A stretch of 64,000 nt of DNA from Thermoanaerobaculia bacterium (lineage in GTDB: Bacteria > Acidobacteriota > Thermoanaerobaculia > Multivoradales > J023), in the NCBI GenBank assembly GCA_030431255.1, contig JAUIJL010000024.1, forward strand, positions 62,001 through 126,000, read 5' to 3'. The translations under genes and the position numbers were made by a program. This document shows, piece after piece, positions 52,223-56,633 of the stretch; position 1 is the stretch's first letter; each line of letters begins with the position of its first letter. The notes under the pieces were generated by a model. The model had not been told where the DNA came from and ran no database searches. It saw nothing but the letters and a program-made list of their open reading frames with translations.

Positions 52223-52256
52223 ATTCGACCTCCGTCCGTATTTTCCTTTGACGTCG

Positions 52257-53405
52257 TTACCTTCTGACGTCGCTTCCCGCCGATGTCGAGCTCCCGCTGA
52301 CGTCGCCGAGCTCCCGGGCTCGCGCCAATCGTTTCTCCGTGACCTCGATCCACTCCGGGTTGGGTGCCGACGCCTGGCGTAGGGTCCGGAGGCTCCGCTC
52401 GAGAATCGCTGCCGCTTCGGAAGATCGACCGATCTCGGTCAAACAGGATCCTAACCGGCTGGAGGCGAAAGCGGTCAGTGCATGGCCTTCGGGCAGCGAG
52501 GTCCGGCGAAGGTCGACGGCCCGCTGGGCAGGGGGCACGCAGCGATCGGCCCGGCCGAGCTCCGCATGTCCGGCGGCCAAGCTGAGCAAGAGGTGGGCTA
52601 GGCGTGGGTGATCGGTGCCGAGCACCGTTTCCGCCACTTTGAGGTTGAGCTCCGCCAGCTCCACGGCCTGCGAAAATCGACCGGCCCTGCCGAGCACGGA
52701 CACCATGTTGTGGCGCACGTGCAGGGTTGCGATATGGCGCGGCCCGCGTACGCGGCTTTGGATGTCCAACGCTTCGCGAGCGGCGGAAATCGCGGTCTCC
52801 GCGTCCCCGAGCTCGATGATCGCCACCGCCAGGGCGGTCAGATGCTCGGCACGTGCAATGGCTTTCTCCGCATCCTCGGCATCCAACAACGACAACGCCT
52901 GACGATGGGCATCGACGGCCTTCTGGAAGTCCCCTTGGCTGAAGTGCAGGCTGCCCAAGCGCAAAAGGGTCGACACCAAACCCGACGTATCCTGCGGGTC
53001 GGGCCCGCGGGCGCGTAGGTCGAGTGCCCGTTGAATCTGCTGGGTGGCCTCCTCGAATCGATCCAGGCTCGACAGCGATTCCCCGAGCATCTCCGAGTGG
53101 TCGGCCAAAACAGCCGGCGATTCGCCGGCGAGCTCGGCGAGGGCCGACGTTTGCTGGAAAAGAGCGACGGCGGATTCGAATTGCCCCTGCTGGTAGAGAA
53201 GCGTCCCCAGCCGTAGCCCCAACTCAGATGCTTTTTTCGCCAGCTCGACGGTTCCGAGCCCGTTCTGCACTTCCGTCCGCGTGCGGCTGAAGACTTCCAA
53301 CAATCTGGCCAGCACCTTGGAGTCCGGCTCGTAGAGACGGCGGGTTCCCTCGATCAAGACCTGCTTATCCGTTTCCGGTAGGTCGAGCTCGAGCACCGAC
53401 GCCAC
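52257..53405 (-). CDS. TPR protein of unknown function
   Basis: A 382-residue cytoplasmic protein made almost wholly of TPR units, e.g. GTLLYQQGQFESAVALFQQT, LGSLHFSQGDFQKAVDAHRQ, LGDAETAISAAREALDI and LLSLAAGHAELGRADRCVPP. The N-terminal 45 residues are outside the repeats. It starts with GTG at 53405; no strong ribosome-binding site supports it, and the true start could be a little downstream. The pattern is like the TPR sensor halves of larger regulators, but no effector domain is attached. The divergent neighbour is a small protein gene. Confidence 0.85.
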   Translation of the reverse strand: MASVLELDLPETDKQVLIEGTRRLYEPDSKVLARLLEVFSRTRTEVQNGLGTVELAKKASELGLRLGTLLYQQGQFESAVALFQQTSALAELAGESPAVLADHSEMLGESLSSLDRFEEATQQIQRALDLRARGPDPQDTSGLVSTLLRLGSLHFSQGDFQKAVDAHRQALSLLDAEDAEKAIARAEHLTALAVAIIELGDAETAISAAREALDIQSRVRGPRHIATLHVRHNMVSVLGRAGRFSQAVELAELNLKVAETVLGTDHPRLAHLLLSLAAGHAELGRADRCVPPAQRAVDLRRTSLPEGHALTAFASSRLGSCLTEIGRSSEAAAILERSLRTLRQASAPNPEWIEVTEKRLARARELGDVSGSSTSAGSDVRR

Positions 53406-53546
53406 GGTCTGCGACTACTTGGTCACTTGGAACTGTTCCCACATCGCCAACGCGGTAATCTTGCCTAAGGTCGCCACGATTAGTGATCGGTTTGGCCTGC
53501 TCCTGCCGTATGTCTGCACTCCCGAAGAACTTCTAGGAGATCCCCA

Positions 53547-53762
53547 ATGACCATGGATGAAATCGTCGACGAGCTCCACCAGCAGCGTGCGGAAGAGATG
53601 GAACGCTTCAACTTCGACCCAGAAGCGTTTTGTCAACACCTTAAGGAGCAGGAGAGGCTTTCCGAAAAACTGCTGGTTTCTCCTCCCGAAACTCCGCCGA
53701 GCCTTGAGGTCCAGCGGACTCGCGCTGCTCGTGGTGAGCCCAGGCGAGCCGAACGCACATAG
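53547..53762 (+). CDS. Small antitoxin-like protein
   Basis: A 71-residue protein (MTMDEIVDELHQQRAEEMER then FNFDPEAFCQHLKEQE). The layout (D-E-I-x-E-L-x-x-x-R, F-N-x-D, L-K-x-Q-E) matches a widespread family of very small hypothetical proteins that often sit beside toxin or mobile genes; antitoxin function is only a suspicion. AGGAG precedes the ATG by about nine bases. No toxin gene is evident next to it. It could be a remnant of such a pair. Confidence 0.6.
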   Translation: MTMDEIVDELHQQRAEEMERFNFDPEAFCQHLKEQERLSEKLLVSPPETPPSLEVQRTRAARGEPRRAERT

Positions 53763-53829
53763 TTTTGATCTGGAGCCCCAAGAGCGATTTGAGCAAAGAT
53801 CCCTAGTTGGAAGGACTTGTAGTCCCATC

Positions 53830-53863
53830 AAAAAAAGCCCGCGACGTTGCCGTCGCGGGCTTT
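53830..53863 (-). terminator. Rho-independent terminator
   Basis: GCCCGCGACG (53837-53846) and CGTCGCGGGC (53851-53860) form a perfect 10-bp stem with a TTGC loop. On the minus strand it is followed by a run of seven T, so it ends transcription of the H-lectin-like gene at 53910. Confidence 0.9.
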
Positions 53864-53909
53864 GCTGCGTCGAGCCCGCCCTAAGGCGAGCTCGGGGAGC
53901 TGGACTGGA

Positions 53910-54224
53910 TCAATTACCGATCAGGATCCAGCCCACCACCTCGTTGACGTGGCCGACCTCGCTGTTGGCCGACTGCTCTTCGTGCACTTGCACCTCAACG
54001 TCGGAAGCGGTGAGGTTGCGGTAGCGCAGGGTGCAGGTGTCACCGCCGTTGTTGGTTTGCATGGCCGCCAAGAACGTCGCCGAGCGCGTCGATTGGGTGG
54101 CCATCGAGACCGGCAGCACCACCTTCGACGGCAACAGCCTGACCGTGGGCGTGACCGGCAACACCGTGGACGAGGTTTGGGAGACCATCAGCTTCGGCAC
54201 CTCCCAAGCCGGTGCCACCTTCTT
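53910..54224 (-). pseudogene. H-lectin-like C-terminal domain gene, disrupted by an internal inversion
   Basis: On the minus strand, 53910 to about 54069 encodes AAMQTNNGGDTCTLRYRN, LTASDVEVQVHEEQSANSEV and GHVNEVVGWILIGN-stop, the classic C-terminal half of a beta-sandwich (H-type-lectin-like) domain of secreted bacterial proteins. The expected N-terminal half is instead on the plus strand (54073-54222: VDWVAIETGSTTFDGNS, TVDEVWETISFGTSQAGATF). Flipping 54070-54224 restores a single minus-strand domain in frame. The frame is open upstream to 54452 but that part looks non-coding and overlaps the leader of a plus-strand gene, so a 5' truncation is also likely. A strong terminator follows the stop. 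Confidence 0.75.
54070..54224. other. 155-bp inverted segment
   Basis: The segment is bounded by AAGAA (54070-54074) and TTCTT (54220-54224), a 5-bp inverted repeat. Both orientations leave the surrounding minus-strand frame open because the length is unchanged. Only the flipped orientation gives the domain consensus across both junctions (QAGATF joined to LAAMQTN). The arms are too short for a typical invertase site, which favours a one-off microhomology inversion. Confidence 0.75.
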
Positions 54225-54311
54225 TCGCCGAAGTGATCGAGTTTGCAACGCTTTCGCGCTTTGAGAGTAGAGAGACTGGTACTGGTCCTCATATACAGAA
54301 AGGAGCCCATC

Positions 54312-54491
54312 ATGACCCTTCAACCACAAGCGCTCCCGCAAAACCAAACCTCCCGGCTCGAGACGCGCGATTCCGACACCGAAGCGAGCTTCCGCGCAAA
54401 GTCCATACTGCTGATGCACCTGTTCCGGGAGATGCGTTCTTTGGAACGGCAACGTCGCAGCAGAGGGTACCCGTATACGACGTCGGTTTGA
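54312..54491 (+). CDS. Small protein of unknown function
   Basis: A 59-residue protein (MTLQPQALPQNQTSRLETRD ... LRE-rich C-terminus, RSRGYPYTTSV). The ATG at 54312 is preceded by AAAGGAG at ideal spacing, which is the main support. The middle (FRAKSILLMHLFREMRSLER) is an amphipathic, basic helix. No family recognised. It overlaps an unlikely minus-strand frame. It could be a leader peptide or a gene remnant. Confidence 0.45.
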   Translation: MTLQPQALPQNQTSRLETRDSDTEASFRAKSILLMHLFREMRSLERQRRSRGYPYTTSV

Positions 54492-54617
54492 ATCCGTCGA
54501 CCAGCGCCGTGCCGGCTCGGCCGTCGAGCGTGGCGCTGGGGCCCGGCCGGTAAGGTCGATGGCCTAAATAAAGTGCGGCAGTTGTCCTGGGCTGAGCGCG
54601 TGTCGTACCCTTTGCGG

Positions 54618-56633
54618 ATGCTCGACAAACCCACCGTCCGTCCGCGATTCTGGGCCGCGATGCTCCCGCTGATCACCTTTTGGCTCGCGGGTTGTGGCGG
54701 CTCCGTGACCGAGCTGTCCGTGGACGAAGACGGCACGCCGGTGATCCTGATTTCCGTCGACACCTTGCGTGCGGACCGACTCGCGGCCTACGGCAACACG
54801 GAGATCCCGACCCCCCACATCGCGGATTTGGCCCGCGACGGGGTGGTCTTTGAGCGGGCGTTCTCCCACGTTCCGCTCACCCTGCCGTCACACTTTTCCA
54901 TGATGACCGGGCTGCTGCCCCACCGGCACGGCGTGCGCTCGAACGCCGGTTATGCTGTGGAGACCGAAGGTCGTGCCTATTGGCCGCGGATTTTGTCGCG
55001 GAGCGGTTACGCCACCGGCGGGGCGGTATCGGCTTTTCCGTTGAGCCGCGGGGCCGGCTTCGGAGCGGATTTCGACTTCTTCGACGACCAAGACAGCTTT
55101 CGACATCCGTCGCGCCCCGGCGTTTTTCAGCGGACCGGTTCCGACACCCTGAGCGTCGCCTTGCCTTGGCTGGGCCGGGTAGCCGGTCGTGACACGCCGT
55201 TCTTTCTCTTCGTACACTTCTTCGAGCCCCACCATCCCTACGAGGCACCGTCCGCCTTCGCCGTACCGGGACGATCCCCTTACGACGCGGAGGTGGTAGC
55301 CGCCGACCATTGGGTCGGGGTGTTGCTCGACGAGCTCCGGCGGCTCGACGTCTATGACCGGGCCTTGATCATGTTGGTGTCCGATCACGGCGAAGGGCTC
55401 GGCGATCACGGCGAGTCGGGCCACGGCATGTTGTTGCATCGAGAAGTCTTGCAAGTGCCCTGGATCGTCAAGCTGCCGGGGAACGGCCGGGCCGGCACCA
55501 GGGTGGCTTCCCCCGCGGGCCTCGTGGATCTCTTTCCCACCCTGTTGGACGCCCTCGGCATGGACATCCCCGAAGGGCTCGACGGCCGATCTCAGCTGGC
55601 GGCGATTCTCGGGGTCGGTGGCGATGCCGACCGAGAGCTCGTCGCGGAGACGGTCTTCCCCCGGGTGGAGATGGGGTGGAGCGAGCTGACGTCCATCTGG
55701 AAAGAGGATCTACATCTGATCCAAGGGCCCCGGCACGAGCTTTACGATTGGGCCGTGGATCCGGGCGAAACCACGAATGTCGCCACGGGCCGACGCCGGG
55801 ACACCGCCCGGCTTCGGGATCGGCTGGATGCCTACGAGATCACCTTCGAGCCGGCGGCCGGAGCCACCGATCCGGAATCCTTGCAGGCCCTGGAAGCCCT
55901 CGGATACGTCGGCTCGGCCGGATCGTCCGAGGATGCATCGCGGGTGGATCCCAAAGAACGAATCCACATCTTCGAGCAGCTACAGGCGGGCCGACGGGCT
56001 TATCTCGCGGAAGATTGGTCGCTCGCCGCGGATCATTTCCAACGCCTGTTGGCAGAGGATCCCTCCCTGGCCGACGCCCGTCTGCTGGGTGCGCGAGCTC
56101 TGCGCCGGCTGGATCGCTTGGAAGAAGCCTTGGCCCTCTACTCCGACGTCCAGGGTCCGTCCGAGCGGACCCTAGAGCTGGCGAGCGAGGGGGTCGACAT
56201 CCTTCGAGCCTTGGATCGGCTTCCCGAGGCCCCGGGTCTGTTGGAGAAATTCGTGCGGGCCCAGCCGGCCGACGCGACGCTCCACGGTCTGTTGGCGCGG
56301 ATCGAGAGCGAGCTGGGGAATTTGGAGCCCGCCTTGGAGCAGGCTGAGCTGGCCGTACAGCTGGCACCCGAGAGCCCGGAAGCCCATTTCGTGCGCGGCT
56401 CGGTGCGCGCGGCGCTCGGCCACAAAAAAGAAGCGATCCTCGATTTACGCAAGGCGGTTTCCGCCAGCGGCGAAACCCACGTGCCCGCCATGGCCGGTCT
56501 ATCCATCCTTTTGCAGGAAGAAGGCGAGGCCGAGGAAGCCCGTCGATGGCTGGAGATGGCGCGCTTTGCGGAGCCGGAGAGCCCCTCCGTGCGGGCTGCG
56601 GAGCAGGCCCTCGGCGTGTCGCCCCAGCCTTGA
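54618..56633 (+). CDS. Sulfatase-superfamily lipoprotein with C-terminal TPRs
   Basis: About 671 residues. The N-terminus ends in LITFWLAGC, a lipobox, so it is probably a lipoprotein facing the periplasm or surface. The alkaline-phosphatase/sulfatase domain (about 35-420) has ILISVDTLRADRLAAYGN (metal site), LTLPSHFSMMTGLLPHRHGV, where Thr stands at the usual Cys/Ser formylglycine position, and LVSDHGEGLGDHGESGHG (second metal site). Residues about 445-665 are TPRs. Without Cys/Ser in C-x-P-S-R it is more likely a phosphodiesterase/phosphotransferase than a true sulfatase. The start is uncertain; a GTG at 54573 is in frame. Confidence 0.88.
   Translation: MLDKPTVRPRFWAAMLPLITFWLAGCGGSVTELSVDEDGTPVILISVDTLRADRLAAYGNTEIPTPHIADLARDGVVFERAFSHVPLTLPSHFSMMTGLLPHRHGVRSNAGYAVETEGRAYWPRILSRSGYATGGAVSAFPLSRGAGFGADFDFFDDQDSFRHPSRPGVFQRTGSDTLSVALPWLGRVAGRDTPFFLFVHFFEPHHPYEAPSAFAVPGRSPYDAEVVAADHWVGVLLDELRRLDVYDRALIMLVSDHGEGLGDHGESGHGMLLHREVLQVPWIVKLPGNGRAGTRVASPAGLVDLFPTLLDALGMDIPEGLDGRSQLAAILGVGGDADRELVAETVFPRVEMGWSELTSIWKEDLHLIQGPRHELYDWAVDPGETTNVATGRRRDTARLRDRLDAYEITFEPAAGATDPESLQALEALGYVGSAGSSEDASRVDPKERIHIFEQLQAGRRAYLAEDWSLAADHFQRLLAEDPSLADARLLGARALRRLDRLEEALALYSDVQGPSERTLELASEGVDILRALDRLPEAPGLLEKFVRAQPADATLHGLLARIESELGNLEPALEQAELAVQLAPESPEAHFVRGSVRAALGHKKEAILDLRKAVSASGETHVPAMAGLSILLQEEGEAEEARRWLEMARFAEPESPSVRAAEQALGVSPQP

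Follow-up and report, generated by a model that had tools for sequence, protein, structure and literature searches.

Invertons, in the passages of PMC11892184 that describe their architecture, combine inverted repeats of 10 to 40 nt with invertases. The microinversions that distinguish human and chimpanzee, in the part of PMC8755829 that treats them, are 17 to 33 nt long and are all flanked by inverted repeats (3 to 75 nt), about half of them by repeats of 4 to 8 nt and 11% by repeats of 3 nt. A microhomology-mediated break-induced replication model is proposed for them in the same section, on the grounds that template switching is difficult to envisage where the repeats are shortest. For true spontaneous inversions in Salmonella, the relevant section of PMC3411829 deduces a microhomology cutoff of at least 12 bp.

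The locus described here lies in a 64,000-nt stretch of DNA from a Thermoanaerobaculia bacterium (contig JAUIJL010000024.1, positions 62,001 to 126,000), which is referred to below as the window. With the invertons, as PMC11892184 portrays them in those passages, it shares an inverted segment inside the gene for a surface-type protein; it differs from them in having no repeats of 10 to 40 nt (those at the window site are 5 bp), no recombinase among the scanned neighbors, and no complete gene. Like the human and chimpanzee microinversions detailed in that part of PMC8755829, it is a short inversion edged by a short inverted repeat. In contrast to that set, it is 155 bp long, is bacterial, was deduced by comparing proteins, and has a loss of sequence beside it. 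A further likeness is to the H-type-lectin-like repeats at the C termini of large bacterial and archaeal proteins, with which the joined domain of the window aligns colinearly; unlike in those proteins, the domain is split by the inversion, the remainder of the protein is gone, and the H_lectin model is not matched.

The most likely reading of the locus is a microinversion, now fixed, in a dead H-lectin-like gene that has also lost its 5' part; it would then be an ordinary scar of a broken gene and not a genetic switch. It offers a clean and probably young case of a gene remnant rearranged by an inversion, about 150 bp long, beside a deletion, in a bacterium where no Ku was found. Scars of this kind cause annotation to miss or mis-split domains; no known principle is altered by the finding.

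Results

The two halves of an H-type-lectin-like domain lie on opposite strands of the window (Table 1). The first half (NVAERVDWVAIETG...QAGATF) is read from the plus strand, and the second from the minus strand, where its leading L codon straddles the breakpoint. When the segment is reversed in silico, the halves join as ...QAGATF-LAAMQTN... in a single minus-strand frame. The initial annotation of this DNA had described the same in-frame junction; its coordinates and frames for both halves were right to within one codon, and the AAGAA and TTCTT motifs with which it bounded the segment are indeed present at the two ends. Both halves are free of stop codons and frameshifts, so the remnant, if dead, would be young. 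The minus-strand frame at 53910-54452 is currently open over 180 aa, and it stays open once the segment is reversed. The terminator that had been noted after the stop codon corresponds to a hairpin that is the strongest of three terminator-like structures found, where shuffled sequences lead one to expect 1.3.

Table 1. Coordinates of the split domain and its flanking signals in the window
Feature	Position	Strand	Evidence or remark
3' half of the domain with stop codon (LAAMQTN...GWILIGN*), noninverted	53910..54071	-	72.1 bits with the profile of relatives (positions 52-102)
Inverted segment of 155 bp carrying the domain's 5' half (NVAERVDW...QAGATF, 54073-54222)	54070..54224	+	42.1 bits alone, profile positions 4-46
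AAGAA arm of the 5-bp inverted repeat, inner breakpoint	54070..54074	.	Sequence
TTCTT arm of the 5-bp inverted repeat, outer breakpoint	54220..54224	.	No lectin-gene homology detected past it
Terminator-like hairpin 3' of the remnant's stop codon: 13 pairs (9 G-C), 4-nt loop, then a T run	53834..53863	-	Inverted repeat I8

The rejoined domain was scored with a profile built from 14 relatives (10 plasmid loci, three genomes of the family, and a gene at C38 in the bacterium's own genome), from which the window was excluded. The plus-strand half reached 42.1 bits, the minus-strand half 72.1 bits, and the minus-strand ORF as it now stands 77.4 bits, whereas the flipped frame scored 122.5 bits in a single-frame match to profile positions 4 to 102, thus covering almost the entire repeat. 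The comparison of the rejoined protein with each half, which had been proposed as a check, therefore came out far better for the joined form. At the protein level, and as measured against the profile of these 14 relatives, the segment is the reverse complement of the ancestral order.

The position of the breakpoints was assessed with 5751 test inversions, which paired starts at 54030-54110 with ends at 54190-54260. The highest score, 122.9 bits, was shared by 54079-54218 and 54080-54217, with 54070-54224 at 122.5 bits. Among the pairs listed, those that kept 54070 or 54224 fixed and were out of frame gave 62 to 75 bits; paired in-frame inward shifts, among those listed (up to 8 bp), left the score flat at 122.5 to 122.6 bits, and outward shifts of more than 1 bp lost about 4 bits. 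Relative to the relatives, the inversion is a firm conclusion of this sequence comparison. The true ends of the segment may lie anywhere within some 10 to 20 bp inward, and the profile fixes no exact base.

Several relatives carry the domain in one piece. In the bacterium's own genome, each half has one identical place, and all other matches are weaker: the plus-strand half matches C38:59625-59753 and the minus-strand half C38:59772-59924, in the same order and on one strand of one 1080-aa frame. On C43, the plus-strand half has a further match that is marginal and partial (E 0.14). The joined 105-aa peptide matches the 1080-aa frame on one strand over residues 4 to 104 (38%). It also matches, again on one strand, frames of 687, 694, and 861 aa in three of the family's six other genomes (47 to 51%, from residue 4 or 5 to residue 104). 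No match was obtained in the remaining three, which include the genome of the same genus, and a genus-level search of two genomes returned matches in the bacterium's own genome only. Across the phylum, two of 396 genomes match, its own and a distant one (28%, residues 5 to 103, in a 2075-aa frame).

Matches were also found in 19 of 72,556 plasmid records, 10 of which were fetched. Eighteen of the 19 hold at least 80% of the joined peptide at one place, and the other, from Haloferax larsenii, holds residues 53 to 101 only, i.e., the second half. The 50,697 phage records gave no match, and no relative was confirmed either in the viral contigs searched or in genome contigs searched with strict peptide patterns, the latter being a weak test. 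At the DNA level, the best stretch of the G005 gene corresponds to window positions 53932-54074 (68%) and ends at the inner breakpoint. Relatives with the same split arrangement in an intact gene, which the initial annotation had named as an observation that would overturn its reading, did not appear among those found.

Judged by sequence similarity, the domain of the window belongs to the H-type-lectin-like repeats that end peptidases and other large proteins. H_lectin is matched by two of the eight members of alignment A1 (best E 8.1e-8), and Gp53-like_C likewise by two of the eight (best E 2e-7); among the plasmid relatives, annotations include "H-type lectin domain-containing protein" (Halocatena) and "M10 family metallopeptidase" (Thioclava). 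In the window, the Pfam H_lectin model itself (PF09458) is matched at its cutoff by neither half nor by the joined domain. The relatives of 687, 694, and 1080 aa carry an HExxHxxGxxH-like sequence. Upstream of the last repeat, BLAST detects one further copy in the frames of 687 and 694 aa and two further copies in those of 861 and 1080 aa; the window retains the last repeat only. A search of NCBIfam returned nothing credible. Matches of remnant pieces to PEX6_N (E 0.0076), Lum_binding (0.046), and STAC2_u1 (0.31 and 0.19) were under the cutoff and were attributed to chance, as was colicin B, the sole match in the PDB profile search (E 0.13).

The upstream part of the gene, which had been described as seemingly missing, was sought in the flanks and in the rest of the genome. 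The flanks yielded 43 open peptides (at least 15 aa, six frames, 53200-53909 and 54225-54900), and none scored above about 0 bits with either the domain profile or a version extended by about 100 residues upstream. When the 561-aa upstream piece of the 687-aa relative was compared with the bacterium's own genome, only the C38 gene was found. Homology to the lectin gene ends no more than about three codons from the outer breakpoint. With the domain profile, the match of the flipped frame starts at the second A of AKNVAERV, three codons inside the breakpoint, and with the extended profile it starts at the K of the same motif, which is the breakpoint codon. The gene is a 3'-terminal remnant: its upstream part is lacking in the flanks and did not turn up in the rest of the genome, and the remnant would not be expected to make a functional protein. 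These comparisons support what had been put forward as the simplest reading, namely that a decaying gene was split by a short inversion. At 53400-54700, no sigma-70-like promoter was detected, a result of little weight given that shuffled sequences yield only 0.2.

No syntenic region was identified in the family with the DNA of 52250-54250, the sulfatase, the TPR gene, or the small ORF as the query. The DNA search returned pieces of 31 to 143 bases in three other genomes, two of which are the lectin genes in G003 and G005. In the six other genomes of the family, neither the small ORF nor, at E 1e-30 or better, the TPR gene had a match. In G004, a sulfatase is located some 4 kb away from the lectin gene, and the two are oriented relative to each other as in the window. 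This arrangement was rejected as synteny because the window sulfatase ranks seventh (32%) among the eight homologues listed for the G004 sulfatase and because no other gene in the rest of that stretch matches the window. The ancestral DNA of the same gene was not found among the genomes searched. Since no relative with the locus as it was before the event was found, one event cannot be distinguished from two by direct comparison.

Discussion

We consider it likely that the window holds the 3'-terminal scrap of a longer gene and that a single rearrangement produced both the inversion and the 5' loss. The ancestor would have been a minus-strand gene for a longer protein, probably secreted, with H-type-lectin-like repeats at its end, and the remnant would represent one domain of about 100 codons from its 3' end. 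In the rearrangement, probably template switching or break repair guided by a few homologous bases, about 155 bp of the final domain would have been reinserted in the opposite orientation and joined to unrelated sequence, and everything upstream of the last domain would have been lost at the same time. Because the 5' loss coincides with the outer breakpoint, inversion and deletion probably constitute one event. A two-step history, with truncation to the last domain coming first and an inversion later making use of the cut edge, is rather unlikely: no pre-event locus is known that would contradict it, but if the two steps were independent, the end of homology within about three codons of the outer breakpoint would have to be a coincidence. 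Either way, the outcome would be a fixed inversion in a dead gene.

The rearrangement may well have used microhomology, although we do not take the AAGAA/TTCTT repeat as proof of mechanism, as it is hardly beyond chance: when comparable sets of end pairs were drawn at random positions across the window, 3.4 to 9.6% of them contained a repeat of at least 5 bp. Against a role for so short a repeat, the confirmed spontaneous inversions in Salmonella had longer microhomologies (PMC3411829). The AAGAA arm may also have been created in part at the junction instead of being inherited as an ancestral repeat, since at a position where 11 of the 14 relatives carry H in the profile alignment, the window carries N. 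Ku is required for classical bacterial end joining. No match to Ku at E 0.001 was found in the bacterium's own genome (the control search found it in one of 14 genomes, that of Bacillus subtilis), which speaks against classical end joining, so that template switching and microhomology-mediated repair remain as candidates.

The initial annotation had left the choice open among a fixed microhomology event, a reversible switch of a surface protein, and an assembly error. Our analysis favors the fixed event and lends no support to the switch. It is quite unlikely that the 155-bp flip is absent from the real chromosome and arose in assembly or amplification. The genome is a draft in 54 contigs, and inversions at short homologies are a known type of chimera; against this, the site is inside a 140-kb contig, about 24 kb from the contig end, and the flip alone restores no gene, so that an artifact would need to sit on a real truncation edge. 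That the segment is a reversible intragenic switch (an inverton) of a surface lectin is very improbable. The breakpoint does split a surface-type domain, and the minus-strand frame is open in either orientation, but the repeat is only 5 bp, the sequences around the two breakpoints agree at 16 of 50 bases, and no recombinase was found among 10 neighboring proteins (46.3-61.7 kb) or six scanned translations. Moreover, neither orientation gives a complete gene; the flipped frame is missing the upstream region seen in the relatives, and it overlaps a small plus-strand ORF in antisense. A variant in which 5-bp repeats alone sustain a reversible inversion that alternates two versions of a small minus-strand protein (the 180-aa frame) is scarcely credible.

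Neighboring features

The small plus-strand ORF at 54312-54491 encodes 59 aa, starts with ATG at 54312, and has AAAGGAG ahead of it; of the seven genomes in the family, this one alone carries it. A perfect 13-nt inverted repeat (I9) pairs 53841-53853, within the terminator hairpin, with 54446-54458, within the small ORF, at a distance of 592 nt, and could be due to chance. A second small plus-strand ORF (53547-53762, 71 aa) follows a GGAG sequence and has no Pfam match above the cutoff. The region 54573-56633 encodes a sulfatase with C-terminal TPR repeats. The sulfatase belongs to a set of multicopy paralogues, with 11 matches in the bacterium's own genome at E 1e-30 or better and 10 to 14 in each of the six other genomes.
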